From Liolophura sinensis (lineage: Eukaryota; Mollusca; Polyplacophora; Chitonida; Chitonidae), in the NCBI RefSeq assembly GCF_032854445.1, contig NC_088306.1:30229764-30293763 (forward strand): 64,000 nt of DNA, given 5' to 3'. Shown here one piece after another: positions 2,782 to 58,636 of this stretch. The notes below the pieces were generated by a model. It saw nothing but the letters and a program-made list of their open reading frames with translations, searched no databases and was not told the origin of the DNA. Each line of letters opens with the position of its first letter. Within the stretch, counting starts at the first letter, position 1. The position numbers were made by a program, and so were the translations under genes.

Positions 2782-2815
2782 TTCTCGTAGCGAGAATTAC
2801 TGATTTTATAGAGAG
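2006..2815. mobile_element. Foldback / long-TIR non-autonomous DNA element (array copy 1)
   Basis: The left arm (2006-~2250, from 'tctgtttctttcaacc' through 'cataatgttaaatttcag' to 'tgacgtcataattcttc') reappears inverted and diverged in the right arm (~2630-2815, 'gaataattacccgaggc', 'cgttatgaattagaaaagg', 'gtcactgactaaagaca'). A diverged stand-alone copy at 15908-16628 gives the outer ends independently. No transposase is visible inside, so this is a non-autonomous, MITE-like element that became part of the tandem unit. The spacer carries a perfect TGACGTCA (2217-2224) and repeated GGGCGTGG motifs (2258-2330). Confidence 0.7.
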
Positions 2816-5563: not shown

Positions 5564-5597
5564 TTCTCGTAGCGAGAATTACTGATTTTATAGAGAG
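4799..5597. mobile_element. Foldback / long-TIR element (array copy 2)
   Basis: Same structure as the copy at 2006-2815 inside the second tandem unit: inverted arms of about 200 bp, a GGGCGTGG-rich spacer (about 5039-5103) and no coding capacity. Its right arm crosses into the start of unit 3, so the unit boundary I chose (the hairpin) lies inside this element. Confidence 0.7.
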
Positions 5598-8374: not shown

Positions 8375-8408
8375 TTCTCGTAGCGAGAATTACTGAATTT
8401 ATAGAGTC
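7572..8408. mobile_element. Foldback / long-TIR element (array copy 3)
   Basis: Third array copy. The spacer is enlarged by additional CCAAT + GGGCGTGG rounds (7817-7910). The right arm reads into the start of truncated unit 4. Confidence 0.7.
7817..7910 (+). repeat. CCAATGGGCGTGG micro-array
   Basis: Back-to-back copies of 'ccaatgggcgtggc' and variants. GGGCGTGG is the sequence bound by Sp1/KLF-type fingers and CCAAT is the NF-Y core, so the repeat looks like a multimerised promoter module. Whether it acts as one is inference. Shorter versions lie at 2258-2330 and 5039-5103. Confidence 0.6.
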
Positions 8409-12330: not shown

Positions 12331-12410
12331 TAAAATCCATAAAAAACACCGACACCTCTATTAACTAACATCTTGTCAAAACCGACAACATTTCGGTCAG
12401 TTTTCTGTTC

Positions 12411-12865
12411 CATTTGACCTAAAGATTGATGATTTCAAGGCTTCGTCAGGATGGTTGGAAAGCTGGAAACACCGTTTCTCCGTGAAGGCCTGTAAAGTGA
12501 GTGGAGACAGCGCAGAAGTAAATGAAACAGACACAGACGACTACCGCCAGCGCATCCCTGGACTTGGTGCCCATTTCTCACCAACCGACATCTTTAACTG
12601 TGACGAGACTGGGTTGTTCTACCGTGCCCTGTCTGATAAAACCCTTGCCCGGACGGGTGACCTTGCGAAAGGGACAAAAGTCTGCAAGCAACGATTAACC
12701 ATTATGTTCGCCTGCAGTGTAACAAGGGAAAACTTAAGCCACTCGTGATTGGAAAATTTCTAAAGTCACGGTGTTTTAAGAACTCTGGCTTATCAAATAA
12801 GATTAGCTTATCACGCCAATAAGAAGGCGTGGATGACTGGGGCCCATTCAAGGAATGATTCAAGC
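12411..12865 (+). pseudogene. pogo/Tigger-type transposase relic
   Basis: Translation from about 12411 gives a pogo-superfamily DDE transposase segment: a GWLESWKHRF block, then NCDETGLFYRALSDKT, which contains the first catalytic Asp. The frame shifts near 12718; 'KLKPLVIGKF' and 'RCFKNSG' continue in the next frame. After a further break, 'NKKAWMTG' is readable near 12820. Only the middle of the DDE domain survives: no intact HTH/CENPB region and no second Asp. A terminal repeat candidate lies downstream at 13084-13131. Inactive. Confidence 0.85.
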
Positions 12866-30606: not shown

Positions 30607-31480
30607 TCATCTTAATGCTGGCATGTATGCACATGGTGACATGGTGATAATCATAATGCTGGTATGTATGCACATAGTGGTCATGTTATTGCTGGTAAAT
30701 ATGCACATAGTGGTCATCTTATTGCTGGTATATATGCACATAGTGGTCATCTTATTGCTGGTATATATGCCCATAGTGGTCATCTTATTGCTGGTATATA
30801 TGCACATAGTGGTCATCTTATTGCTGGTATATATGCACATAGTGGTCATCTTATTGCTGGTATATATGCACATAGTGGTCATCTTATTGCTGGTATATAT
30901 GCCCATAGTGGTCATCTTATTGCTCGTACATATACACATGGTGGTCATCTTATTGCTGGTTTGTATGCACATGTTGATCACGGTGATCACGGTGGTCATC
31001 TTAATGCTGGTATGTATGCGCATGATGATAACCATAATGCTCGTATGTATGCACATAGTGGTCATCTTATTGCTGGTATATATGCACATTGTGGTCATCT
31101 TATTGCTGGTATATATGCACATAGTGGTCATCTTATTGCTGGTATATATGCACATTGTGGTCATCTTATTGCTGGTATATATACACATGGTGGTTATCTT
31201 ATTGCTGGTATATATGCACATAGTGGTCATCTTATTGCTGGTATATATGCACATTGTGGTCATCTTATTGCTGGTATATATACACATGGTGGTTATCTTA
31301 TTGCTGGTATATGTGCACATAGTGGTCATCTTATTGCTGGTATGTATACTTGTGGTCATCTTATTGCTGGTATATATACACATGGTGGTCATCTTATTGC
31401 TGGTATATATGCACATAGTGGTCATCTTATTGCTGGTATACATGCACATAGTGGTCATCTTATTGCTGGTATATATGCAC
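30607..31480 (+). repeat. 33-bp minisatellite, array A (about 26 copies)
   Basis: The unit is 33 bp with core 'tatatgcacatagtggtcat' plus 'cttattgctgg'. Because the period is a multiple of three and the unit lacks stops in several frames, long ORFs run on both strands at once (plus 311 and 276 codons, minus 283). That pattern shows the ORFs come from the repeat, not from selection on a protein. Confidence 0.9.
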
Positions 31481-32010
31481 TGTTACGGTATTAAAAACAG
31501 CAACAGAAAACAGACTCATTGACTCAATATTACAATGTAAACAATGCTTAATATATAAAATGAGACGTACAGTTTTACAGACAGTTCAACAACAACAACA
31601 TAAAAAAAACATACACATCAGTATTACCGGTCTTTAAAAGTTTCCAGTTCACCTTTGTATCCCAAGGAACGTATTCCAGGAGATCCAACGCAAAGACCAT
31701 GGGATAAACACACAATTCACACAAGTCACAAATTGTCCCAGTCAGGTACTTCGCTAGGTTAGCGAACGCGAACACAGTACACAGGTTACACAGAACTGGA
31801 ACAGTCAAGCCTTTGAATGACGTCACACCCGCAGAGCACAACACAGGGTAAATACAGGCATGGAGGTATAATCCACTTTAGAACAGTCACAGCTCCCGCA
31901 GAAACTCACAAACGAGCCGTTCAGAGACGTAGAGTAATGTCACCTTGTGGCAGAACGAACGTCCTTTGCAAAACTGAAAACTTCAGTTTAGAGTCCTTGA
32001 CGACCTTGTA
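31481..32010 (+). mobile_element. LTR-like ~0.53 kb repeat, copy 1 (interrupts the 33-bp arrays)
   Basis: Begins TGTTACGGTATT and ends near 'acgaccttgta'. An inverted copy, over 90% identical by eye, lies at 61987-62509. It contains a TATA-like 'atatataaaatgag' (31551-31564). It splits array A from array B, and flanking satellite differs on the two sides, so no clean target duplication is visible. A TG start suggests a solo LTR, but neither copy ends in an obvious CA. Class uncertain. Confidence 0.7.
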
Positions 32011-33180
32011 AGGCTGGTGTATATACACGTGGTGATAATCATAATGCTGGTATGTATGCACATAGTGGTCATCTTAATGATGGTATATATGCACATAGTG
32101 GTCATCTTAATGATGGTATGTATGCACATAGTGGTCATCTTAATGATGGTATATATACATATGGTGATAATCATAATGCTGGTATGTATACACATGGTGA
32201 TCATCTTAGATCTGGTATGTATGTATGTACATTGTGGTCATCTTAAACCTGGTTTATATCCACATGGTGATCATCTTAATGCTGGTGTATATGCACATGG
32301 TGATCATCTTAATGCTGGTGTATATGCACATGGTGATAATCATAATGCTGGTGTATACGCACATGGTGATAATCATAATGCTGGTGTATATGAACATGGT
32401 GATCATCTTAATGCTGGTGTATATGCACATGGTGATCATCTTAATGCTGGTGTATATGCACATGGTGATAATCATAATGCTGGTGTATACGTACATGGTG
32501 ATAATCATAATGCTGGTGTATATGCACATGGTGATAGTCATAATGCTGGTGTATATGCACATGGTGATAATCATAATGCTGGTGTATATGAACATGGTGA
32601 TAATCATATTGCTGGTGTATATGCACATGGTGATAATCATAATGCTGGTGTATATGCACATGGTGATCATCTTAATGCTGGTGTATATGCACATGATGAT
32701 CATCTTAATGCTGGTGTATATGCACATGGTGATAATCATAATGCTGGTGTATATGCACATGGTGATAATCATAATGCTGGTGTATATGCACATGGTGATA
32801 ATCATAATGCTGGTGTATATGCACATGGTGATAATCATATTGCTGGTGTATATGCACATGGTGATCATCTTAATGCTGGTTTATATGCGCATGGTGATAA
32901 TCATAATGCTGGTGTATATGCACATGGTGATAATCATAATGCTGGTGTATATGCACATGGTGATAATCATAATGCTGGTGTTTATGCACATGGTGATAAT
33001 CATAATGCTGGTGTATACGCACATGGTGATAATCATAATGCTGGTGTATATGCACATGGTGATCATCTTAATGCTGGTGTATATGCACATGGTGATCATC
33101 TTAATGCTCGTGTATATGCACATGGTGACAATCATAATGCTGGTATGTATACACATAGTGATCATGGTGATCATCTTAAT
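32011..33180 (+). repeat. 33-bp minisatellite, array B (about 35 copies)
   Basis: Related to array A but with a different majority unit: core 'tatatgcacatggtgataat' plus 'cataatgctggtg'. Two sub-variants alternate (gataatcataat and gatcatcttaat). One plus frame is open for 434 codons (32017-33321) and reads an 11-residue His-rich repeat (VYAHGDNHNAG). The minus strand is open too. Confidence 0.9.
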
Positions 33181-33218
33181 TTTTACTCAGCATTAAGGTT
33201 AACTGTAAATAAAGAAAT

Positions 33219-33390
33219 ATATGCACATCATGGTCCACTTAACGCTGGCATATATGGATATTATAGTCGACCTTATGCTGGGATATATGCACATCATGGT
33301 CCACTTAATGCTGGTATTTAAGCATAGTATAGTCAACTTATGGCCGGTATATATGCACATCGTGGTTCACTCAATGCCGGTATATAATAA
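33219..33390 (+). repeat. 33-bp repeat, array C (5 diverged copies)
   Basis: Five 33-bp units with core 'atatatgcacatcatggtcc' and 'acttaatgctgg', separated from array B by about 40 bp. It is the most diverged end of the same satellite family. Confidence 0.85.
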
Positions 33391-33719: not shown

Positions 33720-34370
33720 TGATACTTCTATAAGTTCAAGTGGGGGCTTTTAATAGTGAAATGGGTGATTTTTTTCGTAAAACCTTCAATTGCCATCGAT
33801 ATATATTTTGTCTCTCTAATGCTGGATTCTAGGCATGGTCCACTTCATCATGGTTCCAGATATATACATATGTGTATATAGCGACACATTTGTTCACTAA
33901 AGAGGTATTTTGTCGCTGTTGGACGTTCTAATGAGGTACCAAAATTTGTGGGGTACATTTTCACAAGTAATCTGTTTGCAAATTCTTAACAGGGCATGTC
34001 CTTGCGTTTTTGCAGAATGCTGATGTGCCCTAACGTTTGATTGGTTAATTTCCCCGAATAGGGAAGTCCATTTCATGCTTTTCAGCGGAAGGAGTGGGGA
34101 GAAAACGAAACACCGTATAAGCAAGTATGTCTATGCAAAAATTTGTATATAGAATTCTATTACCCTTCGATTCCTTTTTATTACATACAACGCACTGCCT
34201 GGCTCTGTGCCAAGTGTACATTATCTCAGTCGTTAGATCCCCCCATCAAGAGACAGAAGCGTTTGACTTCTGGACGGGTCTATTGTAGTTCTATGGGTGG
34301 ATAGAGGTTGTTGTTTACTTTGAATAAAGCAGACGACAGGTATAAACAAGGAAATAAAATGGCGATTTTT
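33720..34370. other. No gene seen
   Basis: Unique AT-rich intronic or intergenic DNA ahead of the Crypton-type fragment. Confidence 0.4.
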
Positions 34371-34374
34371 TTCT

Positions 34375-34900
34375 ATCAGAGCAAACGTTTATTTTAAAGG
34401 AGAAAAGTATCAAGCTACAGATGTTTTTAAACCCATAGGGACGTTTGAATGCTACACAGTAAGAGATAATAATGGTTTCACGAAAGTTTTTTTCTTACGA
34501 CAACCTACAACGGCCACAGTTCTTGCTGATGCCGGGGTTTCTGTGATGGACGTCATGTCTGTTACGGGCCACCGCAATAGATCAAGTGTACCGAGTTATG
34601 TCACCAAACTGTCCGTTTCAAAACGCCGTGAAATCAGCAATATCCTGCATGCTTCAAGTGTGTTATCAGAAAATGCTGAAAGTGAAAATGCCGTTGAGTG
34701 AAAATACTATCAAGTCATTCATGCCACCCGCAGTCCAAATGCCCGACGCTGTCGACTATAATGTTACATGTAACAGTAGCAATACCATCCAAATGGCAAA
34801 ATCCTGGTTTTCAGTCAGGCCTCAAAGTTTTGGAGGGTTGTTCAACAATGTAACAATAAATAACAGCAGAGTTCACATCAACTTCACATCCTCTGGATAG
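34375..34900 (+). pseudogene. Crypton-type tyrosine recombinase C-terminal fragment
   Basis: A plus frame open from about 34375 to 34701 contains the C-terminal catalytic end of a tyrosine recombinase: 'TATVLADAGVSVMDVMSVTG' (34510-34569), GHRN (34567-34578, the His/Arg box), then 'SSVPSYVTKL' with the presumptive nucleophilic Tyr at about 34595. A second frame (34586-34900) ends 'GGLFNNVTINNSRVHINF', like the tail of Crypton-derived proteins of the QRICH1/KCTD1/ZMYM (DUF3504) kind as I remember them. The shift between the two frames and the missing N-terminal half make this a relic. A complementary N-terminal/middle relic lies at 61055-61720. Confidence 0.75.

Positions 34901-36171: not shown

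Positions 36172-36211
<40 letters not shown>
36172..36211. repeat. (TA)n microsatellite
   Basis: Near-pure TA dinucleotide tract. Confidence 0.95.
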
Positions 36212-41780: not shown

Positions 41781-42205
41781 GTAAGTTAAACATACAATAC
41801 TGAAATCCCAAATTTTCAGATTTTGTTGTCAATTATCACTAGGAGTAGCAAAAGATGAATTTTTTAAAACTCTAAATACGTCAATTTCATTTTCAAAATA
41901 ATGTAGCATGTTAATAAATAAGAACACAAGACAATAAATATGGAATCATAGCTTTATTGATATTCTTCTGCCAGTACTTACCGTTCAGAATAGCGTTGTA
42001 TTCAGGGCCACAGAGTAAATTTTGTGTGTGAGGTTTACAGCGGTGAAGGGCTGAAAGCAAGAACTGTTTGTAACTGCAAAAACTGGCCTGCGATAAAGTG
42101 TTTCGGTTGCAGCTAATGTATGAAACATGTACAGAGGAAATTATAATGTATTATAATGTATTATAATGTATAAGTTGACATGCCTTAGAAAAATTCTTTT
42201 TGTAG

Positions 42206-42720
42206 TGTTAAACACAGATTCTGTTGAGGTGCCTCAAAACCTTAAGTGGAAGCATGGTGATGATATTGTCCATAGTGGGATTCATATGCCTGTCCATCGA
42301 CAGCCGTCCTATGTCATCCGCAAAAGAGGTAATGTTGTGAAGAAAAGGAAGTTGCCATTACTGTGGTGATCTGTTTTCCAATATAAGTAAACATTATAAA
42401 ACTTTACATAAGCATGAGATAAAAGTAGCTAGAATTCTAGCATTGAAGGAAACCGGACATAAATCCAGGGCCTCCAAGACAGAGTGGGGGCTGCTTAGAA
42501 GCTAAGGAAACTACAAGTACAATAAGGATATTATGGAAAAGAAAGATGGTGGGTTGCTTGTTGTACGGAGGGAAAAGGGCGGGAGGGAAAAACTTTTGTA
42601 GTAGTTACTGCACCCCCGGAGACAATTACAACTTCTCAGCACCAAGTACGACATGTTGATGTTGTGGAGACAGTGCAGTCGAGATTGGTCCTATTTAACA
42701 AAAGGGGAACTGGCATTGAG
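42206..42720 (+). pseudogene. C2H2 zinc-finger exon, broken
   Basis: Acceptor 'ttctttttgtag' ends at 42205; donor ttgag|gtaatc at 42721. The first part reads 'LNTDSVEVPQNLKWKHGDD' and on to RKRGNVVKKRK. A +1 shift near 42345 leads into CHYCGDLFSNISKHYKTLH, a Cx2C-x9-Hx4H finger at 42353-42409. Then come HEIKVARILALKE and, after a TAG, 'GNYKYNKDIMEKKDGGLLVV'. A finger followed by an 'ALxK...S' helix and an 'L...G.Y..N..V' block is the N-terminal layout of the family as I remember it. Several stops follow from about 42598. Confidence 0.65.
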
Positions 42721-42945
42721 GTAATCATGGGCTGTTTTTAATGAAATGTACAATTTAGCACATGACGGTCAGTTGTTCAAGTTGCGTGCTCATCCTGTCT
42801 ATTGTGCTAAAGGTTGGGAACCTGGTTCCATTGTTTGATAATGTGGCTCATCCTCGGGGAATTACCAATTTACTGATGGGTTTTATATGTTTAAAGCTGT
42901 TTTAATTGTTTACAGCATTCAACTGAATTGTTGTTTCTTCCTTAG

Positions 42946-43010
42946 GTCCAGTGACATGTGTCTTGTGTGGGAGGGATCCTTTTTGTTCCACGTACAACAC
43001 ATGTACAATT
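42946..43010 (+). pseudogene. Weak second finger-like exon
   Basis: Acceptor 'tttcttccttag' and phase-1 reading GPVTCVLCGRDPFC, a CxxC pair without convincing His partners. No donor identified. Confidence 0.25.
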
Positions 43011-43029
43011 TTCTTCTACATACATTTAT

Positions 43030-44800
43030 GGCCAAAAGTATTGACACATAAAACTAAAGCCAGTATTAAAGAGATAATAATGTACTAATTGTTGTTGGAC
43101 AGTTTGGTCAAGACCGAGGCCCAGTATAAAAACATTAATCATTTGGCAAGGTTAGAATTTCATATACATATGACTGCACGAGAATTCAGCTGGATTCCTT
43201 CCTGTGCCTGTTACGTGAATTCACAGAAACCAACTGATGAAAATTTTTATCAAAATCAAAAATATACTTGAATTTGCAAAATCAGTTAGATCTAGTATTC
43301 AATATTCAGAAATTTTCTGATAAAATTGAAAGGCAGTTTCAAGTCGTTCATATTGTTATATTTTTTCTGCAGATGAGTTATCTATTTTTAATGCCATACT
43401 CAGTCATCGTTTAAGCCCCTCAGAGCCTGCATAACTTTAAATTCTCATGTGATGAGTGCCCTTGACATTGTAGGCCACAGCATTATACCTTTCTTTACCT
43501 TTATATCTGCTTTATATATCTTCGCAGTGTGTTTAGCGAAAATAATATATCCGGGCACTGCACCACAGCCTTTTTCCCTTGCTTGTGTCTTTCAAGCTTA
43601 GATGTAAGCTTGAAATTTCTCTCTTCAATATTATTTCAAAAGGGCCTTTACCGTGAAACCATGGCAACACTGTCAGAGTCTTTAAAATTCGATTGACAAC
43701 GAGACTCCTCGCCATCAAATTTCTGCAACACTAGAATAAATAAACTACAAGTAGATATTTTTATAGAGGCGGGTCTAAAAATTTTAATTATAATTTCTAA
43801 TGCGAATAGACGAAAGTGTTTTGTTAAATTTCATTGCAATTATGTAAAAACAAAAATAAACGTAAATCTGACGTCTACAGAGTTTTTTTCTACCAGGTCA
43901 CTAAGGCGTTAAACCCTGTGCATTGTATAAAACATTTTTTTTAAAATGCACAGTTAAGCGGCCACATTGTTTGCTGTTTTGCCAAACAAATTAGCAAAAC
44001 AGAGTTGTTTTTTTTTCTGTACATTTATGATAGTTTATTTTTTTATTATTACCGATCTTGTGACCACTTGCCAGTGTGCTGGTTCTGTGAATCGCCACTT
44101 GCTGTGGCTGCAAGTTTTGTCATAGTTAGCTTGTCATCGTGTTTGTGTAATGTGATACATGTATCTTGATATCTACTTTTGGTCATACGTTCGTTGTTTT
44201 CGCCATGTTTTATACAATGCAGTATTACACCTTGCGAGTTGACATACATGTAGGGACCATGTGTTAAAGTGAAGTATGAGGCGTTCAGCTACATGTAGTT
44301 GAATCTGCTCCTACGTCACTTGAGCACCTATGAAACCCTGTCATACATTGATGCGTGGAATGACTTGCCAAAAACTGGGACCGTGTGCAAGTTCTATCAC
44401 AAACTCTACTTTACTGACCAATCAACGCCTGATGTCTTTAAAGTGGCTTGGCCTGTTATGAATATCCTATCCTTATTAATAGCTTTTTTCATTGTCAATT
44501 CAGAAATAAGCTGGCTAGCAGCTCTACCATTCTGGATGTATTTCTGCTACTGTTAACATGGTTAAGTCACCCAAACATTCAGTGAAAATGACACAACAGG
44601 ATTCAAACCGGGAATCAGTCATCTGTCATCATTTGGGTACAGAACGCAAGAATACTCCAATCTTGACCACGGAAGTTGTGCTTTTAAATTTCAGCCTGGT
44701 GTGTGAGGTACTCCAAGAGCGCAAAACAGTTACAGTTATATGTCTATCAGTTGTATGCTCATGAAAGTGATTTAGGGGATAAAAGCGGGATAAAAACCTG
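43030..44800. other. Intronic DNA; unassigned ORFs
   Basis: AT-rich. An 85-codon plus ORF at 44299-44556 (contains YIDAWNDLPKTGTVCKFYHK, then a hydrophobic run) stands out from background but has no start context, splice partner or family that I can name. Confidence 0.35.
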
Positions 44801-44815
44801 TAAATTGTCTTCCAG

Positions 44816-44870
44816 ATTTCATTGCAAAGCAGGCCAGAGTCAATACACCTGTGCAGATCAAAGAGTACTG
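44816..44870 (+). pseudogene. Weak exon candidate
   Basis: Acceptor 'ttgtcttccag', phase-1 reading FIAKQARVNTPVQIKEYW, donor tactg|gtataa. It lies where the start of the recombinase-like region would be expected, but similarity is not certain. Confidence 0.3.
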
Positions 44871-45591
44871 GTATAACCTATTTTTTCATATATCTACGTA
44901 TAAATTTTCATAAAATTACTAAAGCATTAGGAACCTCAGCACAATGCGATAGTTCTCAGCACTGGACAACGCAGGCAAAGAATTACTTTGTTCTCTGGTG
45001 AACTAGTGCACATACAAAATAACATGAAGAATAAGAAATTTTCCACCACAAAAATTGGTAGAAAACAGGAAACCCAAAGCAATAAGTACTGGGGTGAAAA
45101 TTAGTTAAAAATTAACAAATACAATTTTATAACTGAATATATACATAGGAAATCTTATATTGCCAAAACCGAAAATTATGCGGAACAGAGATATAAGTGA
45201 CATCCTAAATTGATACGGGGAGGGCTGAGAAGCAGTTGCAAGCAGATCGCTTTGACACCATCTGACCTTATTCATTTAAGTGTACTAAAATTTTATGTAA
45301 TATTATGAAACCCTCAATAGTTTCCATTTAGCCAACAATTTATTTTTACTAGCACACAAGTGAAAGACTTTTGAGCAATGTCATTTTGACCAGAGTGTAC
45401 TGTGTAGGCTGGGTGACTTCTCAAGAGGCAGCGAACACGTATTGGTACGTGTGATCACGTGTAAGAATATGACATTATGAAAGCGTTAACAGTGTTAATG
45501 TAACGATGAAGATGCGCAGAGAATGCATCAGATTCACTAAGGCAACATTTTTGTTGTGCTTTTTGTGCACTGACATGACTTATGTCCACAG

Positions 45592-45865
45592 TCTATAGTA
45601 GTTTTCGCGATCTTACTGTACTCAGGCTGGAAGACTTCTCCAGAAGAGGTAACAATGACACGGTTTTGTCAGATGTTGTGAAAAAGACACTCAGCAAACT
45701 GGAAAAAAACTGTTATCAACACGTGAAGTTGTGACAGTTCAAGGGAAGAGAGGAAATGCAGTACCCATTATCATTCCACCTGACACAGCCACAGCCATGA
45801 ACTTGCTCCTAGATGAGATGTTCAGAAAGGCAGCTGGGCTCACCCTGCTACAAGAAGAGACATTA
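45592..45865 (+). pseudogene. Recombinase-like domain exon, N-terminal part
   Basis: Acceptor 'cttatgtccacag' ends at 45591; phase 1. It reads 'LRLEDFSRRGNNDTVLSDV' and on to KLEK. After a one-base shift in the A7 tract at 45703-45709, it continues 'LLSTREVVTVQGKRGNAVPI' and 'PPDTATAMNLLLDE'. The GKRG.xVP block is a hallmark of this recombinase-derived family. The RRR..GE-type catalytic Arg box, expected just upstream, is not visible. The exon runs into a (TA)n tract, so its donor is lost or obscured. Confidence 0.7.
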
Positions 45866-45892
45866 TATATATATATTATATATTATAGAGAC

Positions 45893-45953
<61 letters not shown>
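45862..45953. repeat. (TA)n microsatellite cutting an exon
   Basis: Two short TA tracts and a long one starting within or at the edge of the coding exon above, apparently replacing its 3' end. Confidence 0.9.
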
Positions 45954-45955
<2 letters not shown>

Positions 45956-45999
45956 TCAGGCACACGACGGACATGTATGAGATACCAACTGTTGTTTTC

Positions 46000-46122
46000 A
46001 TTTGAGTAATTTCAACCACTACTTCAACATTGCTCACTCCAGGACCATACTTGTGAAACCTTTGTTTAACATCAAAACCAGTGATGTTAGAAAGACATGT
46101 GTGTTATCATTAAAACACATGA
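46000..46122 (-). repeat. Dispersed ~120-bp repeat, copy 1
   Basis: Contains 'agacatgtgtgttatcatta' and 'tcatttgagtaatttcaa'. A reverse-complement copy sits at 57650-57780. The two are roughly 85% identical by eye, with one internal gap. Class unknown. Confidence 0.75.
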
Positions 46123-46176
46123 ATTCCATGAATTGCTTGACTGTATGAATGTTATTTGCCCATTAATTTCTTTTAG

Positions 46177-46302
46177 GTGACGAAGTCTTCAGAGCCTTTT
46201 CATCTCTTAAAAAATGTGCTGAAACGAGTTGGATGCAATGAAAAAATTGCCAGTCAGATCAAAGCATCAAACTTAAGAAATTACCTGGCAACAAACTGAC
46301 AG
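46177..46302 (+). pseudogene. Recombinase-like domain exon with TGA stop
   Basis: Acceptor 'atttcttttag', donor gacag|gtgaga at 46303. Length 126, phase 0-0. It reads VTKSSEPFHLLKNVLKRVGC, then IKASNLRNYLATN, followed by TGA (46297-46299) and Gln. The 'xxLR.YxAT..Q' block continues directly into LMNLSE of the next exon, so the TGA replaces a single codon in an otherwise perfect join. Confidence 0.75.
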
Positions 46303-46309
46303 GTGAGAA

Positions 46310-47690
46310 GAGGGAAAGTAAATTAATGATCCTAATAGTTTACAGGTGGCTTAGATCTGAGGTATGTTCCATTCATCCCAGCTTAGTTTTAAGAACTACA
46401 GATCTGCATTATGCCAATCTCTGACTATGCTTACCTGGAACTCCATCATTTTGAATGTGCTGTCCTTGACCTGTCAAATCTGTGTATCCTACAGAAACAA
46501 GCATGTTTTGATCCTGCAGTAATTCTGACTTCACATCATCTTATGATCATCATCTTATTATTGAATATTCATTATTCATGAATAATAATGACATAAACCT
46601 CACAATTAACGCAAGTTTATCAGGGGCATCGACAAGCAGCTAAACTTTGATAACCTCCATTTTTCATTTGAATGGTCTGAACCGGACAGCAAAAACGAAC
46701 TCCACACGAACGTTCAGGTTGAAACAAGGACGATTATGACAAAGAAATGGCAACTTATTTAGCAGTGTTTTCTTGTAATAGTATACAGAAAGACTATAGG
46801 CAACAATTGTAACAAAGAAGATGGTCTTATCTTTGAAATGAGTAGCCGAGTGCACCCAAACAACAGCGTCACATGATCTAAAAATAGCGGATTGCAAAAT
46901 CTGTATAGTGTCCCTCGGGATGCATCGGGTGTATTTGTGTTAACTGCAACGCTTTGGTGCTTATTATTCTTGCAAAATGAGATGATGGGCATTTAAAATT
47001 ACGTTTTGGAGGCAACAGGATTAAGTTCCAGGTTAGTAAACTAAGCACATCTGGAACACTAAGTGGAATCTGGGAACATGCATGACCAACCGATCTCAAA
47101 ACTAGTAGTGGCTGTATCGAGAATGGGCCTTTGTCTCTAGGATTTGCTTCGTACTAAGTGACGTGACCTTCTGTACATGAGCTATCTGATATTACAAATG
47201 AAAATGTTTGTCAAATACTTACCGAAGGTCACTGATTTTCATCCAAGAAGATCTGTTATATTCTCTCAATTAACAGACTGCCATATTGTAACCAAAACTG
47301 TTTAGTATGACATAATGAACAGTGAAAAGAATCGCACTCTTGATTTCTGACTATTACAAAACACCGTACATGCATGTACATTAGATACCTGTAAATACCA
47401 TAAATTTCCTGCTAAATTCCCCTCTTTCTTCTAAGACCTCCCCATAAAGTCTTAGAACTTCAGTTTCAGAACTTCAGCTAATGATTTAACAAAACATTAT
47501 ATTGTGTTGCAGTCTGTGGTCAGTCGGCATGTAGTGTAGCTTTTTGTGAAACTGACTCATTATAACACTGTTTATGAAGAGAAAATACTGAGAGACAGTT
47601 TTCAGGGAAATAATATGTCCATTTAGTGTGGAAAGTTTGAAAGGATTTTGACAAGACTGCTGCCTGAGCTATACAGAAGTACGAAATTTA
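46310..47690. other. Intron, no gene seen
   Basis: AT-rich. Minus ORFs at 46664-47099 overlap each other in different frames and show nothing recognisable. Confidence 0.45.
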
Positions 47691-47700
47691 TTTCTTTCAG

Positions 47701-47896
47701 TTAATGAATCTAAGTGAGACTGAACTTGATTGGGTCGTACGACACTTGGGCCACACGAAACTGACCCAGATGAACAACTATAGGTTGTCGTCTTCGACAG
47801 TTGAAAGAACCAAAATAGCCAAGCTGCTTGTCTTACTGGAGAAGGGCATGCTGGGTAAAGCCCAGGGCAGTACACTGAGTGACCACAGTCTTGATG
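47701..47896 (+). pseudogene. Recombinase-like domain exon, C-terminal part
   Basis: Acceptor 'atttatttctttcag', donor gatg|gtatgt at 47897. Enters in phase 0, leaves in phase 1, open throughout. It reads 'LMNLSETELDWVVRHLGHTK', then NNYRLSSSTVERTKIAKLLV. The HLGH box and the Tyr about 8 residues later correspond to the C-terminal His and nucleophile positions of tyrosine recombinases. In this family such domains are usually thought to be non-catalytic host derivatives. Confidence 0.8.
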
Positions 47897-47899
47897 GTA

Positions 47900-50860
47900 T
47901 GTTTTAGTACAATAAATTTTCAAGTGATTTTGAATTAATTTATGCATGCAGATTTTTGAGGTTGAGTGGTCAACCCCAAAATACTTACACATGACATGAA
48001 GGATGTGTTCATGATGTGATAAAAACATGGCTTTTGGGACATATTGCATTAGAGACACCCCTCACCTGATACTTGTGGAATTTACACTACTATCATACTT
48101 AGAGACGAGCATTAAAGGAGGAGGCAGCAAATGATAAATATCATTGTTGCAATTCGTAAAAGCTACTCTGTTTTCGTTATTAAAGTGCAGAATTTTCATG
48201 TGATTGCTGTTTTTTGAAAAAAAACTTTGAATAATTCGTGCGTCTAACTGGTTTTGCAAAACAGCCATGTTCAGGGCTATGGTCAATGAGTATGAATTAC
48301 CCGGTAAACCATTACTCCTTTCAAACTTCTGACACTGCTTGTTTCGTTCCTCACTTTTTTTTTAGCTGCATTCAACATCTTGATTTCGCACTGCTGTGTC
48401 AGTCGCGAGCTGTACTCAAAAATGTCTTGCTAGGACTAAATAACGCTGTGGCTGACAACTGGTAGGTTAACCCAAGCGATAACAGGTTTTAGAACAGAGA
48501 TATGTAATAATTATCCCTGTTTGTAGGGCAACAGCTCGTCATCGACATGCAAGTGAGATTTTTGAAAATGGAGGGTTTCAGGACGAGAGCGCAGCGCAAG
48601 TTCTCAAACAGTTCACCCGGCCCTGTTTTTCTTGCATATGTCTATGGCATTTTTGCAAAAATGTCAAACTAAGACGATCACAAAAACTTTTCTCCCAACC
48701 TCGTGTACTGAATACATCTGAAAAAGTCACGTAATTTTGACTTTTTTTGTGAACTTTGGCATTAAGCTTGACATTTTGTCCAGTGATGGGATCCATTTTG
48801 ACAACTCCATTTATGGTTTTGATTTGATAGAGACAGACGATATTGTTGACAACTAACTGTTCAGTCTTCATTTGGAGTTTAAATGTCACATGGAACGTTG
48901 TCTAAGTTAATACCTACTAGAGAAAATCGTTTTGAACCAGACGTTGGCCTATATGTTTCTTGGGTTAAAGATTTCACTCATGTGATACAATGTTGTTTTA
49001 AAGATAAACTAAAAGTGCAAAAGTTCAAAATTTCTCAAAGTTTGAAAAAGCAAATAAAATAAGTTGTGTGTCAAATTTATACTTGTCAATATTAATTTGA
49101 GTGGTGGCATTGATTAGAAATCCCTAAAAATCCATTATGATGTCAACATTCGTTCACATTCAGAAATAAATCTATGGTTGATCAGGCACAAAACCGACGT
49201 ATGAAGGACACTAATGCCTATGTCAGAAGCATTTTGATTGGTTTATGGTGGCACGGCCTCAAACAATGGTTGCTTCGAAACGGAAAGCGTGTTTACGATT
49301 TGACTGTAGTTTATACGTGTTTCTCTAACAACAGACACAACAGGAAAGTTCTCATTTTATATGATTAATACGCATAAGTCTTGGGCTTTCTTATAGTATT
49401 GTGTATTATTAATATCCTGCCTCTTCCTCTAAGTTTGTTGCTGCTCACATACTTTTGAGGAATCTATCTTTTGTAAAGTTTTCATTAATTTCTAACAGAG
49501 TACACATAGCTGTTCAGCTGCAGAGTGTTTGACTTCATTGTGGTTTGCCTGTGTACGTGTAGCTTAATTCATAAAAAAGTATAAAAAATACTTTAGGTCT
49601 CACTCATGAAGTGCATTATTTAAGATCAAGGTTGAAAATAAAATTGAACTGTGAAATGTTGAGAACATCTATTCATATTAGCATGTTAATTCATGGTATT
49701 CATGATTTTAATGACAGTAGCCAGTATTTAAGCAAAGTTTTAAATAGTGACTATCATGTTGATGGGTACCACTACCATTTGAGGTAGCTACCAGATGTTA
49801 GAATTTACTTGTGCAACACATTACGTTCTACAAGCTTCTACAAGATGGCAGTCACATCAGGTTTGAACCTTGTGGGTAATATATAAATCAGATTTATGTT
49901 TTAGGCAGTCATTGAGTTTAATCTTAAAATCATCTTTGATTCAAGATCTTATGTTGTGCATGTAACTTTCATGATACAGTAGCTGTACATCTGCAGTCAC
50001 AGGTTAACAGGATAAGTTAATCCCAAACAACAACAACAACATGAAATACAACAACGTCACAGTAAATATAGCATAATGTAGGCATGTCAGCTGCGTCTTA
50101 AATATTACTGGTTCATCATATTAAAAATACTTTAAGTAAATGCACAACGTGTATTTTGTTTTTGTTTTAAAATACTTTAAATTTGATCTATATATTATTC
50201 ATGAAGAAGAAAATTGATAATTAATTATTCCAAAAGGGGGGCAAGTCTTTGTTAACCACAAAATGGTGGATTTATGGCACTTCCAGGCATATCTTGTAAA
50301 GTAGAGAGTGAATTTCTGAAAGCGAAGAGCATATTTTGTAGAATAAACCTAAGAAAATGCAAATGGGGATGCAATAATGAAATGAATTTGTTTTTGTTTT
50401 TTTTGAAAAACGTATTAGCAAACATCCACTTCTTACCAACATGACCAATTTAACATTGGCATGGACACTAACAAATGTCTGTTGTAACTGGCATACACTC
50501 TCATCAGTTCGATGAAAAGTATTTCAAAAGTTTGAAGAGGATTAGCCTTCAACGTAATGCTGTAACACGTTCCTGCAGGGTTATATACATGTATATAGCC
50601 TAAATATCCGGACTGTTTCATTTGCTCTGGCTTTTTTTTCCCACCGCTTCTAAAACATGCAGTTCATATTTTTTCTGTATGGATAGAAAGTGGGTAGTGA
50701 CTTAGATGCCATCACAAGTCACATGATATAGCGTTGGGCTATTTTGAGCTATTCTGTTTTGCAATCTTTCCTTCCAATCCCAATTGGATAGGGCCTGCAT
50801 ATGTCAGCAAATCTTAAACTATATTTCTAATGCTGTATGATGACATTTTCTTTTTTTTTT
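47900..50860. other. Large intron, no gene seen
   Basis: About 3 kb of AT-rich DNA between two exon candidates. ORFs at 48238-48465, 48578-48889 and 49174-49368 have no recognisable features. Confidence 0.45.
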
Positions 50861-50863
50861 TAG

Positions 50864-50901
50864 AAATTCCCACAACACAAAGTAACTCAGAATCCATGAA
50901 G
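50864..50901 (+). pseudogene. Short linker exon candidate
   Basis: Strong polypyrimidine acceptor (ten T, then tag). It reads IPTTQSNSESMK in phase 1 and has a donor gaag|gtgaga. It leaves in phase 0, which does not match the next exon (phase 1), so it may be alternative or damaged. Confidence 0.4.
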
Positions 50902-51705
50902 GTGAGATGTACTTTGTATTTGTTTCCCACTCTTTCATGAAAGGTGAAGGATATACTTCATGAAACTTCAGGTTTGTGTTTACATTTAAAAAAAACCTTG
51001 GACTTTGCAGAGGGAGTGGAAGAGATCGGCAGCATAAAATATGGTGTTTTCTCCTTATTTTCGCCGATTCTGGGGGTTGAATAGGAGTTTATAACTGTTG
51101 TTGGAATTGGACAATATTATATGAAGTGGTTCTGGTGGCAGGTCCTCAGATTAAAAAACTTGTCCAGATTCATCCAGGACCAGTCTCCTGACATTGCCCT
51201 TCCAGATGTTGACCAAAACTTGCCCATGTTTAAAACACATGTAGCTTTATAACAGCTGAAATTAGTCAACTAGCCGTTGTTCAGTTGAGATACACTTTTT
51301 TTGGCACAGTGACCGACCCATCAAAATTCTTGTTCAAGCTTACGTGATGCATATTTATACATTCCCTTGGTTCTAATGGAGTCAATGCGTTTATTATGGA
51401 CCTTACATGGTTTCTGATTATGTGAGAAGTGTGAGATGTATTACCTCCCAGAACCATCTACGTTTAGATTCCCTTCTCTTGGAAAGTTACACAAACTAAG
51501 CTCCATGCACTGGTAATGTAACTGAACACTAATTCATCATATAAATTGTCTCATGTGATAGGCTAAATTTGTTCATTTTTATATGCTATCAGTTCAAGTC
51601 CTTCTGCCATTTCCCAGGAAAAGGCTAATGTCTTTAATGAAAGATACATGATTACATACAGTACGTTGTCACTCTGTTTAATGATGAATTTCGGTGGGGG
51701 TGGGG

Positions 51706-51960
51706 GGGGGGGGTGGCTCTATGGCTGAGGTGATTAGTGTGCTAGTGCAATAACCCAGGAGCCTCTCACTAGTGCTGTCGCCTTAAGCTCAAGTCCAGGT
51801 CATACTGGCTTCCTCTCCGGTCCTACGTAGGAAGGTCTGCCAGCCACCTGCGGATGGTAGTGGATTTTCCCGGGTTCTGCCCTGTTTCCCCAGCCATAAT
51901 TTCATGAAAGTGAAATATTCTTGAGGATGGCGTGGAACACAAATCAAATAAACAAAATAA
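51706..51960 (+). mobile_element. SINE (family 1), near full length
   Basis: tRNA-like head ('ggctgaggtgattagtgtgc' for box A, 'ctcaagtccag' for box B), the 'cctgcggatggtagtgga' core, and the tail 'gtgaaatattcttgagg' with an A-rich end. The preceding poly-G (51690-51712) may mark the junction. Confidence 0.85.
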
Positions 51961-52936
51961 TTAACATTCCATGTGTGATAAAAAGACACATTTTCCTCGA
52001 TTATGTGCAATGCATTCATCTTCAAAAAGATATTTTAGGGTTTGCGTTGAAGTTGGTACGATGTACCGCCGGGAAACATAAGTTTTTTCACTATAATATT
52101 ATGAAACATTTTGGGCTCTCTGAAAGTGCGTTTTTCATCTTAAATTGCAAGGCAAATATGGTATTCCCTTTTACACAGGATGCGATGCTAAAGGAAATGT
52201 ATAGAGCAACCTCGCTTGCTTTGTGTTTTAATAAAAAAAGTATTTATGTTAATTTTGCTTCTGAAACTAATGTTTCGATTGGCATGGTTTATATTTGTTG
52301 TACACAGCTATCTACATCTACATGTACATGTGATTTTGAGTGAAAAAAATGTGAAGATCATTTACGTGAACAGTACAGTGACCCTATTCAAGTTTTGCGA
52401 TGTCATTGTGTGTGCCTGACTGAACTCTTTGACAAAACTCCATGTTAATATAACATATTGTGAAGACATTGTAGCTTGAATGTGTCTGGGAAGACCTCAT
52501 CTGAAGAAATGAGTTGAAATTCACGCAATCTGCTGTGATAATTTTTAGCCTGCCAGTCATATGTCTTCTGTGACAAATCCCAAACCACAACACTCTGTTG
52601 AGGCTGGAATAGCAACTTTGGTGAAAAATGAATAATCCTTATAGAAAAAGTCACCATTTACATGTCAGTGTGATTTTAAAACCTTTTTGTTGAGACTAGT
52701 AATCACTGAAGCCTATATATTGGCTGTGAGAAAATGACCTACGGTCAGAATGCTTATGAAATGCTGGCGTATTTTAGGATTATACCATTCAAGTTTACAG
52801 TTGGTTTTCTGAACATACATGTATGCACCTAAGGAGGAGTGAAGTTTGTTTGACACAAACCATCTAAATATAGGTTAGTGTTTCTTTCAAAAAGGTGTAC
52901 CCTTATTTATTATATGAATTCCTTGTTTTCTGTTAG

Positions 52937-53014
52937 ATGAGCCTTTAGAGGTGGAGAAGAAGGGCACAGCATCAACTGCAACTTCACAACGGACAGCAGA
53001 CAGTCGAAACTCAG
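52937..53014 (+). pseudogene. Acidic linker exon, phase 1-1
   Basis: Acceptor 'ttgttttctgttag', donor ctcag|gtaagt at 53015. Length 78, open. It reads EPLEVEKKGTASTATSQRTA. The last bases of the donor are the TA target site of the Tc1 element that follows at 53022. Confidence 0.6.
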
Positions 53015-53021
53015 GTAAGTA

Positions 53022-54560
53022 AACTACCAGGCAAAAGAAAGGTTTCACCCACTTCTTGAGCCCATAAACAAAAAACAAGGCAGATATAAGAATTAAGAAG
53101 ATTGGTTTATAAACAGAAATCATTGTGAAATATTCTCTCAAAAAGGCTTTAAAATATTGGCATTCAATTGGCCACAAAACACAATGAAAGAGACAAGGGG
53201 TCAGAAGAAAAAATTACACAAATGTAAAGTTAACTGGCAAGTGCATGTAAAGTCACAGTATCCACAGAAATGAAGGACTACAGTCGTCAGTAGCGAGTGT
53301 GGCCACCCTGGGCATCAATGCAAGCAAGCACACGCCTCCGCATTGATGTCGTCATTGATGTCGGATGACGTCAACAGGGATAACGTTCCATAGGTTTAAC
53401 AGAGCTTGCTCAAGTTCCTGTTGGTTAGTTGGAGGAGGCACCAGCTGCCTCAAACGGCGGTCAAGGTGATCCCAGAGATGCTCAATGGGGTTCATGTCTG
53501 GTGAGTTGGCTGACCAGGGCAACACGATGTCGTTTGCGGTCTCGAGGTAGTCTGTAACAATGCGGGCAGTGTGAGGTCTTGCGTTGTCGTGTTGCAAGAT
53601 CGATCCTCTTGGCTGTCGTTGGAGGAAAGGAACGACGACAGGTCTCAGTACCTCATCAACGTATCGCTGGCCAGTCAGATTACCTCGCACAATAACCAGC
53701 TGCGTCTTCATTTAGTCACAAATCCCTCCCCAGACCATGACGCCTCCGCCTCCAAACGGATAAATCTCTCTTACGCAGTTTGGCGCGAGACGTTCGCCTC
53801 TTCGTCGGAAAACTCGAACTCTGCCATCGATCCTGAATAGACAGAACCTGCTCTCGTCTGTAAACAGCACTCTCGCCCAGTCACGTCGCTGCCACCGACG
53901 TACAATACGTGCCCATCGCAATCTGCGTTGACGGTGTAAAAGGGTCAAGGCCATCCCACGGAAGGGGCGGTAAGGTCGTAAACCAGCTGAACGAAGACGA
54001 CGCAGTGTTGTTCTGGGACTGATGACATGGCCTAGTGCTGTCGCCGCTGTTGACGTCGCCGTGACGAATCGGTTTCGGAGGTGGATCTGCCGGATGTAGC
54101 GATCTTCAGCCGCAGTTGTTACCCTCGGTCTTCCCGATCTTGGTCTGTCTTGGGACTGGCCTGTCTGCTGATAGCGTATCAACAACCTCCTGAAGGTGGT
54201 TTGGCTGCAGTTGAACGTTCTTGCAATGTGACGTTGCGAGACTCATTAGGTGGACATACCGATGGCCTGGTCTCGTTGCGCTTGCGTAAGTCTTGTCATA
54301 CTGTTGGTGTTTTTTCGGTCACTGAATGTCTGCTCTTTCGAGCAAGAATATTTATGCAACATCACGAGCCATGCCTCAAAAGGACGTTTTGCATCTGGTC
54401 GTAATTTCACAATTCCAATTGCTGCGTTCGTGACGATGCGTTCTGGTAGAGGAAACGATGCAGTCATACACTAAGTCCTGCTTACAATCAAACCCGGAAC
54501 CGCGCTTTTACTTTTTTTATGTCAAAAAATACGGTGAAACCTTTCTTTTGCCTGGCAGTT
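53022..54560 (-). mobile_element. Tc1-type transposon, both ends present
   Basis: Flanked by TA on both sides (53020-53021 and 54561-54562). The 28-bp terminal inverted repeats start AACTACCAGGCAAAAGAAAG on the left and AACTGCCAGGCAAAAGAAAG on the inverted right, differing at one base. Total 1539 bp, normal for Tc1. It contains the nonsense-mutated transposase at 53352-54299. The close TIR match indicates a fairly recent insertion. Confidence 0.92.
53352..54299 (-). pseudogene. Tc1-type transposase with three in-frame stops
   Basis: One continuous frame from ATG (MTRLTQAQRDQAIG) to the terminal stop, 315 codons before it, interrupted by TAA (54248-54246), TGA (54245-54243) and TAA (53714-53712) and by no frameshift. 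The N-terminal HTH pair spans about residues 1-110 with 'RPRSGRPRVTT'. The catalytic triad is intact: Asp in LFTDESRF, Asp in QHDNARPH, Glu in NPIEHLWD, with 34 residues between the last two (DD34E). Pure nonsense decay suggests a young copy that could be mobilised in trans through its good ends. Confidence 0.92.
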
Positions 54561-54564
54561 TAGA

Positions 54565-55160
54565 TTAAACAACATAGTATTAATGTACTCTTAGGACAGA
54601 GTGACACCATTAAGATGAGGTAAGGTTCTTCTGAGGCCACACGGGGCTCAAGTTTGTTTTTGATAGGTTTCAACTTTTGAGTATATACATGTAACTATGG
54701 AAATGAGGGTTTGCTTGAGGTGATACAGGCAGTGCTTATAAGTTGGTGCATGTATGTCTGATTGTAGCTGGTGTTCAGATAACTTGTCATAATCTCTTGA
54801 TTGGATTTTTTTTATAAATATAGTCACGAGCCAATTAAATTGCATGTAAGTCTTATATTCAATTGTAGTTTGTACATTAATAAAAACATGATGAATTGTT
54901 TATATTCAGAATACATGTACTTTAGTATTGCTGTTTAGGTTGCTGTGTACAGCTGCCCTGAGGTCCAAACCAGTGCAGTGCAAAATTAAGCAACAGCACA
55001 TGTATGAAATTCCTGTGTTTCAGTGCTTGATGGCCAGTTAATATTTTATGGTTGGACAAGTCATTTTGTGTTTTAAAAATATCTTGTAGGATATGTTTTA
55101 CTTTTAGCAATCAGTTTTGTGATGTGTGTAATCGTGTGTTCAATGGTTTAGAAGCTGTCC
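54565..55160. other. Intron, no gene seen
   Basis: AT-rich sequence between the Tc1 element and the next acidic exon. Confidence 0.45.
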
Positions 55161-55166
55161 CTGTAG

Positions 55167-55256
55167 ATGCGGAGGATTCACAGAGTGAGTTTGTCCCGGG
55201 CAGTGAGGAGGACGGGGAGGGGGAGGACGGGGAAGGAAGTCGCTGCTTCCTTGGAG
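55167..55256 (+). pseudogene. Acidic linker exon, phase 1-1
   Basis: Acceptor 'agctgtccctgtag' at 55166. Length 90, open. It reads AEDSQSEFVPGSEEDGEGED and on. The donor is weak (ggag|gtcatt), which may be damage. A run of Asp/Glu/Gly before the basic C-terminal domain is typical of this family as I know it. Confidence 0.55.
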
Positions 55257-55259
55257 GTC

Positions 55260-55900
55260 ATTTATGGAAGGCAAAGACCGCAAATATCATGTTGCCAGGC
55301 AGTCAAGTAGTCAGTTCTCCGAAGATGAGTGTTCATTGCCAAACATAAAAATCAGAAACGGAAGAGTAGACATTCCCAAGTAGACGAGTAGCCATAGCCT
55401 AACAAGACAAATCTACGTTTTCAGATAAGTTGCGTTCATTCCTAGACAGTCTACTCCTACAAATACACAAGTAGTCGTTACTAAACCATTAATTAGTTAT
55501 TCCCAAACAGATAAGTCACAGAAACAAGTTCCAAAAACGTTGGTAGAACGGTGTAATACAACAACCAGTCAGTGAATATCTGAGTTGTCCATTTTTAAAA
55601 TGTAATATTTTGATAACCTTTTGGAGGATTTTAATAAAGTACATGCTGAATCACACATAAATTAAAGGGCTTTGTAATGAAACGTTAACCTCATTAGCAT
55701 TGGAATAATAATTTCTAACAAATGTAGAAAAAGAGAAACTTGACTTTTTTTACAATGAGGTCATTCACCCAAAATCGACTACAGATCTTAACAATGCAAC
55801 AAACCTTCATCTTACCCAAACAGAAGGGACAAAATCTGTTGTTTTTGAAACCCTCTTTTCCATTCTGTCATGGCAGGGTGAAAGGTCTGTTACATTTATA
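55260..55900. other. Intron, no gene seen
   Basis: No coding or repeat signal apart from the SINE that follows. Confidence 0.45.
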
Positions 55901-55902
55901 TA

Positions 55903-56161
55903 TTTTTTGATTGGTGTTTTACGCCCCTACTTAAGAATATTTCACTTGTACGACGGCGGCCAGCATTATGGTGGGAGGAAACCGGACAAGGACCAGGGGA
56001 AACCCACGACCATCCGCAGGTTGCTGGAAGACCTTCCCACTTACGGCCGGATAGGAAGCTAACATAACCTGGACTTGAACTCACAGCGACAGCATTGGCG
56101 AGAGGCTTCTGGGTCATTACACTACGCTAGCGCGCTAACCAACTTAGCCACAGAGGCCCCC
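55903..56161 (-). mobile_element. SINE (family 1), full length, minus orientation
   Basis: Head near 56161 on the minus strand ('ggcctctgtggctaagttgg', box A; 'gagttcaagtcc', box B), core 'aacctgcggatggtcgtggg', tail 'gtgaaatattcttaag' at 55930-55945, and a short A/T-rich end near 55903. Confidence 0.9.
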
Positions 56162-56363
56162 AGGTCTGTTATAAAACAGATCGTACATTAACTTGTCTGT
56201 ATGAGTACTTGAGCTTACTGACATCTATAAATACCTGAATTAATACTGCATTTATTTGTTACATTTACTTTAGACTGGGAGGTGGAATGGATTATTCACC
56301 CTTGATTCCACAAACCGACTGCTGAAAATACCAATTTCTCTTTGTCACTCTGTTTTCTCACAG

Positions 56364-56576
56364 CTTCCAAACTTTTCTTTGGACAGAGGAACAAGGCCTG
56401 ACAAGAAGAGACTATTCATGCCCTAAAGAAATAGTTTCGTCTAAATCTAGAAAATAGAACATACCCAACTTTTTCCACAAATTGGAAGTTTGCAGAAGAG
56501 GTACCCCTCCTGGCTGAGTGAACGTCCTGAGGCGCAAATCAAATCTAAAATCATGTACATCAAACTGAAACAGTGA
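56364..56576 (+). pseudogene. Last exon, basic C-terminal domain, broken
   Basis: Acceptor 'gttttctcacag' at 56363. Pieces in changing frames read LWTEEQ, then ETIHALKK, stop, 'FRLNLENRTYPTFSTNWKFA' and EEVPLL, and finally RPEAQIKSKIMYIKLKQ to TGA at 56574-56576. A W-x-x-E-E start and an 'R..aQIK.Ki..i' end is the pattern I know for the C-terminal domain of this family. At least two frame changes and two stops break it. Confidence 0.6.
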
Positions 56577-56645
56577 TTCCAGTTTGAGTTCTGTGTAAAC
56601 TTATAAAACTATTCATTCAAATTTGTAATGTGAAAAACAAAGTAC

Positions 56646-56651
56646 AATAAA
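56646..56651 (+). promoter_or_regulatory. Poly(A) signal
   Basis: AATAAA 70 bases after the last-exon stop, in the right place for the 3' end of the decayed gene. Confidence 0.55.
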
Positions 56652-57649: not shown

Positions 57650-57780
57650 TAGGAATCCATGTGTTTTAATGATAACACACATGTCTTCCTAACATCACGG
57701 GTTTTAATGTTAAACAACGGCTTTGCAAGTATTGTTCCGGAGTGAGCAGTGATTGAAATTACTCGATGAAAACGTCATTT
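57650..57780 (+). repeat. Dispersed ~120-bp repeat, copy 2
   Basis: Inverted relative to 46000-46122: 'tgtgttttaatgataacaca' at 57659-57678 and 'tgaaattactcgatgaaaac' at 57754-57773. Confidence 0.75.
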
Positions 57781-57784
57781 AGTA

Positions 57785-58480
57785 TGTAACGTGGGACTTT
57801 TCGGACTGGGAGAAACAACAGAAAGGGACAAGTTGCTATGGATTGACCGGCAACATTCAATTTATTAAGCTGTATATGACTGAACGACCTGACGAGAGAA
57901 AAGTACCAAAGTTAGGAAACTAATGGCAGAGAGGTATGGTAGAAACTGCCGAAACGACACAATTAGTCGAATTAAATGCGATGGTTGGTTTCTAGGTATA
58001 GCGCATTTTACCTGACGAGAGAAAAATACTAAAGTTAGGAAAACAAAAGGCAGAGAGGTGTGGTAGAAACTGTATCCTTTAACCGCCAAGCAAGTGCTTT
58101 TACTCTAACTAAGCTCTAACTAAGCCCTAGTCCATCCAATCAGAAACAACCTGCTTGAATACAAATTGTCTACCGTAAGCGGTCATATAAAACTACACGA
58201 AAATGTCCAAGTGGCTTATGAGTAGCGACATGAAGACTCCATGCAACGCGACACCAAAACAAACGTTAAAAAAGATCTAGTAGAATAATGTGTTGAGTTA
58301 AAAAGATGAAGACAAATGCATAGTTGAAACAGAAATGGAAATAGAAAGTTACTGTGACATGTAACTGGTATCATGTTAGGTGATTTCTGGGGCCCCTGTT
58401 AAAAAGCTGTTGCAAAGTTGCCCTAAAATTTCACATCTTCTTGGATGAGGCAGTGAATTTACTATCCAAGCCCAAAGTGT
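57785..58480. other. No gene; short direct repeat
   Basis: Contains an imperfect ~45-bp direct repeat ('tgacgagagaaaagtaccaa' at ~57891 and 'ctgacgagagaaaaatacta' at ~58012, each followed by 'ggcagagaggt'). Nothing else. Confidence 0.5.

Positions 58481-58570: not shown

Positions 58571-58636
<66 letters not shown>

Follow-up and report, generated by a model that had tools for sequence, protein, structure and literature searches.

The window analysed here, a stretch of 64,000 nucleotides of Liolophura sinensis (C12:30229764-30293763, with the 609 Mb assembly of the same genome searched for relatives), carries between 42.3 and 56.6 kb of its forward strand the remnant of a multi-exon gene, in which reading frames and exon borders place, one after another, a C2H2 zinc finger, the blocks of a tyrosine recombinase (YR) and a basic, SANT-like end. 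This remnant probably stems from a YR transposon: it would be an old copy of the transposon's gene, now dead, belonging to a diverged lineage of such elements. Because the only relative in which every tested exon is open, located on contig C6, is the gene of a mobile unit, a host gene is not the default reading of the locus, and a dead transposon copy is the more likely identity of the remnant than a dying host gene. The label SANT-like, as well as a likeness to fish and mollusc database proteins, is a judgement by eye.

The original prediction, made from the letters of the window alone, had described a recombinase-derived zinc-finger gene of several exons broken by at least four lesions, and this description holds: the gene is dead, its lesions are real, the blocks lie where they had been put (Table 1), and the order of finger, K, box II, GH...Y and SANT-like blocks recurs in a second copy at C4:597-620 kb. 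The predicted basic end and polyadenylation-type signal were also recovered, the former closing with a stop at 56574-56576, while the proposed start of the gene at 41785 lies outside any supportable exon. The remnant stands beyond chance because its GH...Y exon has nine matches in the assembly, the nearest of which has other blocks in the same order and on the same strand; the nine are the window itself, C4:600878 (74% at the amino acid level) and seven places at 33-40%, namely C6, C30, C11 at 22.13, 22.17, 12.07 and 17.3 Mb, and C4:652 kb. Seven of these nine places are visibly broken, one (C11:17.3 Mb) is a fragment and one (C6) is open. The finger exon piece, the C2H2 block of which reads CHYCGDLFSNISKHYKTLHKHE at about 42353-42420, matches exon 1 of the C6 gene at 38% (E 1.6e-10), and a search with the finger block found C12:7276483 at 60% (with one TGA), C4:597119 at 45% and C6 at 40%. 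Genome-wide, the K exon matched only the window and C4 copies at E 0.001, and the SANT-like exon is 39% alike to C4:619527 and 43-44% to three other places on C4. The intron between the box II and GH...Y exons is common to the window and C6, at the same place and in phase 0, as is the phase-1 exit of the GH...Y exon; the C4 copy has this exit too, and its box II donor looks damaged. In the Arg-I block of the window the arginine reads by eye as Gly. As to the exons that had been regarded as intact, that at 47701 is open and well matched as set out above, and those at 52937 and 55167 do join it in frame (phase 1), but the latter two had no acceptable match in two C4 stretches (best E 0.42 and 0.25), a genome-wide search with them not having been made.

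The 25 Mb contig C4 holds many family matches (0.58-0.83, 7.4, 9.9 and 10.5 Mb). Further SANT-like matches occur at C4:10255270 and C3:2011305, C4:10056898 is another family match, and a SANT-like frame (44%) at C4:10266553 is open, the 7 kb beside it giving no match to the YR exon.

The family protein is laid out as an acidic N-terminus, the C2H2 finger, a second Cys/His block, the YR domain and the SANT-like basic C-terminus, and in the C6 gene open frames were found for the acidic N-terminus (63226364), exon 1 (63227536-63228807), exon 2 (63229213-63229479), exon 3 (63229788-63229985) and the SANT-like end (63232707-63232901). By eye the catalytic residues R, K, R, H and Y are in place with the box II His replaced by Thr; GK and GH(x8)Y align with XerD and LR was aligned by eye, hhalign to XerD being weak (E 0.024, probability 2). 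The joined YR part of C6 gave a weak match to Pfam Phage_integrase (E 1.8e-5; 25.1 bits, under the curated cutoff of 27.1). A search with C6 exon 1 found 13 places, with matches of more than 300 amino acids free of stops at C6 and C30 only. In this younger C6 branch the gene sits inside a unit of approximately 15.8 kb with repeatable ends, in which the YR exon is the only stop-to-stop frame of more than 130 amino acids, although a further gene, such as one for a reverse transcriptase, might be present in a form split by introns. Copies or parts of this unit, with internal deletions and later inserts, are present at C4:580115-593849 and on C30, C11a, C11b and C11d.

The ends of the unit mostly lie at dinucleotide tracts. 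It starts with ACTTGTGTTTGG and ends with CCCAGCC, GAGA preceding ACTTGTG at the left end and (AG)n following the right end, with TTTATGGGGAC motifs close to both. A search with the last 125 nt found seven places, and all seven matches reach the final base and have an AG tract directly after it; these represent six independent cases, C11a and C11b sharing a flank, and the tract at C11:12.05 Mb is imperfect. The first 119 nt were found at four places, three of which (C6, C4 and C30) are preceded by a GA tract. Over nine stretches AGAGAG occurs at 179 of 318,946 positions with the tracts counted in. Dinucleotide runs of at least eight units number two in the C6 stretch (30 kb), both at element ends, two in that of C4 (55 kb), again both at ends, the left one being GT adjoining a shorter GA run, and one in that of C30 (20 kb), at the right end; the window has eight such runs, all AT/TA. 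The C4 and C30 units are inserted at different points in copies of one GC-rich target, which lies directly upstream of a frame starting MVDAFNESVRNALAAYV, and each provides an empty site for the other: in C30 about 40 nt separate the flanks known from C4, and in C4 about 186 nt separate those known from C30, neither place holding an insert, which indicates that the C30 insertion was accompanied by loss of target sequence.

From these features a mechanism may be proposed in which the finger and SANT-like parts would bind the element ends, the YR would join both GA-rich ends into a circle, and this circle would recombine with a GA tract elsewhere by YR strand exchange, leaving an insert flanked by GA tracts. 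The window copy itself may once have inserted by the same route; it was then inactivated through stops, frame changes and a large internal loss, and carries Tc1-like, SINE-like and (TA)n insertions of later date. The directly supported parts of this explanation are the homology, the exon order, the lesions, the element ends, the GA/AG tracts and the reciprocal empty sites.

Seven small lesions were counted in the window copy, comprising three frame changes (one at ~42340-42355, its place judged from frame and family position alone, one within the A7 run 45703-45709 and one at ~56510-56527) and four in-frame stops (TAA 42503, TGA 46297, TGA 56399 and TAG 56432). In addition, 277 codons separate the VVRR block from Arg-I in C6 as compared to 101 nt in the window, so that approximately 240 codons have been lost from the window copy, and the K exon runs into a (TA)n tract, a further break, where the C4 counterpart has an NPYLFA-type end readable by eye in another frame. 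The minimum of four independent lesions given previously is thereby borne out. Both lesions that had been singled out, the frame change in the A7 run and the TGA at 46297-46299 in a box II exon with normal AG/GT borders, are present as described; the C4 copy is open at the A7 place and has Glu, Cys, Trp and Glu at the four stops of the window. Selenocysteine at TGA 46297 was dropped as an explanation, as there are many other breaks and ordinary decay is enough. The C4 copy has lesions of its own, namely six stops in the first exon, a shifted frame in the K exon and a broken SANT-like end, with frame changes near the last two stops of the window; as it is broken mostly at other points, assembly error, which had been put forward as a possible cause, is unlikely. 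The companion claim of a recent loss is weak: if each substitution creates a stop with a chance of 0.032, the four stops found among 338 readable codons correspond to a rough 0.12 substitutions per site (Poisson range 0.03-0.31), which suggests that the loss of function is not very recent. Over 224 codons the proportions of nonsynonymous and synonymous differences between the window and C4 copies (pN 0.275, pS 0.887) give a pN/pS of 0.31 (bootstrap 0.25-0.37) at saturated silent sites, the GH...Y exon by itself giving a pN of 0.166 against a saturated pS. The comparison with the nearest paralogue that the original prediction had proposed thus detects past selection, under which both copies stood through most of their separate history.

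A number of observations weigh against a transposon origin of the window copy. Neither the window nor the surroundings of the C4 597-620 kb copy and of C4b yielded C6-type ends, although few ends of the window lineage are expected to survive as silent sites are saturated. The window lineage and C6 are only 38-39% alike in amino acids in the best exon, and their exon borders differ between Arg-I and box II. The association with tracts has its own exceptions: the C3 left end is preceded only by TAGAGA and lacks a long GA tract, which means that a short GAGA may suffice or may be part of the element, C30 is without the first 11 nt of the left end, and the C11a-d and C4b stretches hold no dinucleotide run of at least eight units. 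Comparisons with XerD and PDB profiles were weak or empty, and Phage_integrase remained below cutoff. Finally, a gap of 18 kb between exons in C4 and a total of only three window-lineage places would also fit old host genes.

It is accordingly conceivable, if rather unlikely, that the window and C4 copies are relics of an ancient domesticated host gene that is related to transposons and was lost in this lineage. The long past purifying selection agrees with such a history but is equally expected for an active transposon lineage, and the 18 kb gap, the small number of places, the intron pattern of their own and the undetected termini fit a host gene as well. All three window-lineage places found are broken, however (the window, C4:597-620 kb and the C12:7276483 fragment with its TGA), so that an open reading frame across all exons, by which a host gene would be recognised, is present in none of them, and the open member of the family is the gene of a mobile unit. 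The claim that a host gene family is losing a member was not upheld, as the only copy in which every tested exon is open belongs to a transposon-like unit whose ends are defined. We consider it very improbable that the C6-type unit was spread by segmental duplication instead of transposition: C11a and C11b, 42 kb apart, are 97-98% alike over their longest stretches and share a flank, and the targets that received the C4 and C30 copies are related, but the same ends occur with other flanks in C6, C4, C30 and C3, as does the right end at C4:830 kb and C11:12.05 Mb, and C4 and C30 carry their inserts at different target points, each without the insert of the other. Least credible of all is a live gene broken by sequencing or assembly errors, for which the break within the A7 run and the several open exons might speak, in view of seven small breaks, the loss of ~240 codons, an exon end replaced by (TA)n, and breaks in the C4 and C11 copies within an assembly that shows C6 open.

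In its way of working the C6 unit appears to resemble CryptonV, as far as a comparison by description goes. A passage of PMC8869645, citing Kapitonov and Jurka 2012 (Repbase Reports; cnidarians), describes CryptonV as a lineage of YR DNA transposons in which some families insert specifically in microsatellites, and CryptonV is used as a class name also in PMC5753468. On that description both would be DNA transposons with a YR; insertion in microsatellites, ascribed there to some CryptonV families, was found here for the C6-type unit only, with AG at 7/7 right ends and GA at 3/4 left ends. The YRs of crustacean endogenous nimaviruses, as described in PMC10871703, have a C2H2 domain, five/seven key residues and, in two cases, multi-exon genes; they are associated with insertion into short tandem repeats or telomere repeats and are said there to have no close relationship with DIRS, Enterprise or Cryptons. 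By description they are like the C6 unit in combining a YR with a C2H2 domain, in having several exons and in inserting into tandem repeats, but they belong to large viruses and are associated with (TAACC)n or 28S rDNA, whereas the C6 unit is located at GA tracts and has the YR exon as its sole stop-to-stop frame of more than 130 amino acids. CryptonA and the DUF3504 genes (KCTD1, KIAA1958, ZMYM and QRICH1) figure in PMC3212892 as YR DNA transposons of eukaryotes and as genes that descend from such elements, animal CryptonA/I being without a C-terminal domain and DUF3504 genes without the catalytic tyrosine; in contrast, GH...Y is kept in C6 and the window, and C6 has a SANT-like C-terminus. 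Pfam profile searches at E limits of 10, 1 and 0.1 gave no match to a DUF3504-type YR. The survey in PMC4157794, which covered two molluscs, names in the portion available one Crypton only, from a cnidarian, and PMC10027918 makes no mention of tyrosine, Crypton, C2H2, DUF3504 or recombinase. A literature search with motif strings gave no match, and no useful result came from Pfam (single exons and a read-through composite), NCBIfam, PHROGs or PDB searched by sequence, nor from scans of IMG/VR and GTDB contigs. PDB profile matches to Toll-like receptor 3 were weak and taken as chance, and an AlphaFold model of the GH...Y exon (three helices, mean pLDDT 61.6) was too weak to be used.

On a broader and more tentative note, animals may carry a class of intron-bearing YR transposons of about 16 kb, with finger and SANT-like parts of their own and GA tracts as crossover sites, in which case many 'uncharacterised' animal zinc-finger YR genes could be copies or relics of such elements and not host genes, and the window lineage an older branch. 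On the favoured reading, what had been taken for a dying host gene is reassigned to the history of a little-studied transposon class, and ends, target and empty sites are now given for a YR element in an animal genome. Ends at repeat tracts are suggested as a criterion by which host genes and copies of transposons might be told apart within this protein family.

Table 1. Parts of the gene remnant and associated features, in window coordinates.
Feature	Position	Strand	Basis
Probable upstream portion of the finger exon, in another frame (shift just ahead of the finger)	42207..42345	+	inferred from frame and family position only
Zinc-finger exon piece, C2H2 and LLRS*GNYKYN...LLVVRRE block; inner TAA 42503-42505	42350..42577	+	frames, own-genome matches
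Recombinase Arg-I block, RLVLFNKRGTGIE	42640..42720	+	frames, family comparison
K-hairpin exon, LEDFSRRGNND...VTVQGKRGNAVPIIIPPD; holds GKRG..VPIII block; frame shift within A7 run	~45606..45857	+	frames, C4 match
(TA)n tract occupying the expected K exon end	45862..45953	.	repeat scan
Box II exon, KASNLRNYLATN*Q, AG before and GT after; TGA 46297-46299	46177..46302	+	frames, borders
Open exon carrying the GH...Y catalytic block; entered in phase 0, left in phase 1	47701..47896	+	frames, own-genome matches
Exon-like piece, 38 nt, AG/GT borders; frame broken if used	50864..50901	+	borders only
Candidate linker exon, acidic, phase 1 at both borders	52937..53014	+	frame and borders only
Tc1-like element with TA ends, terminal inverted repeats of ~30 bp and stops in the transposase frame	53020..54562	-	insertion in intron
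Candidate acidic exon, phase 1 entry, provisional 3' limit	55167..55349	+	frame and borders only
SANT-like basic C-terminal exon; TGA 56399-56401, TAG 56432-56434, frame shift ~56510-56527	56365..56576	+	frames, C4 match
AATAAA signal	56646..56651	+	sequence

The Tc1-like element begins 5 nt into the intron after the 52937-53014 exon, where its TA completes a GTAAGT donor. In the genome 40 of 163 candidates were scored as matches to it, the window's own at 100% and the others at 95-97%, and one match also lies inside the C4b relative. Dispersed repeat copies, tRNA-SINE-like by eye, occupy 51711-51951 and 55897-56161, and the same repeat occurs near 189-408, 2972-3192, 5754-5974 and 8563-8774 as well as in the C4 and C6 stretches compared. 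Another, unnamed repeat has two copies in inverted orientation (80%), one inside the gene (45982-46127) and one beyond it (57652-57785), and the (AT)n tracts at 36182-36210 and 58573-58634 were considered as borders of the window copy and dropped. A second and different YR remnant, TGHRNRSSVPSY, is found at 34324-34701 (Phage_integrase E 0.026, below cutoff). Elsewhere in the window, a fragment at 12365-12748 shows a weak match, below cutoff at E 0.0011, to the DNA-binding domain of a Tc5-type transposase, a long minisatellite of 33 bp units at 30639-33386 is free of stops in at least two frames and on both strands, and arrays of a 38 bp unit recur every ~2.7-2.8 kb within 1422-9999 (at 1422, 4207, 6989 and 9650), as in a large tandem duplication.

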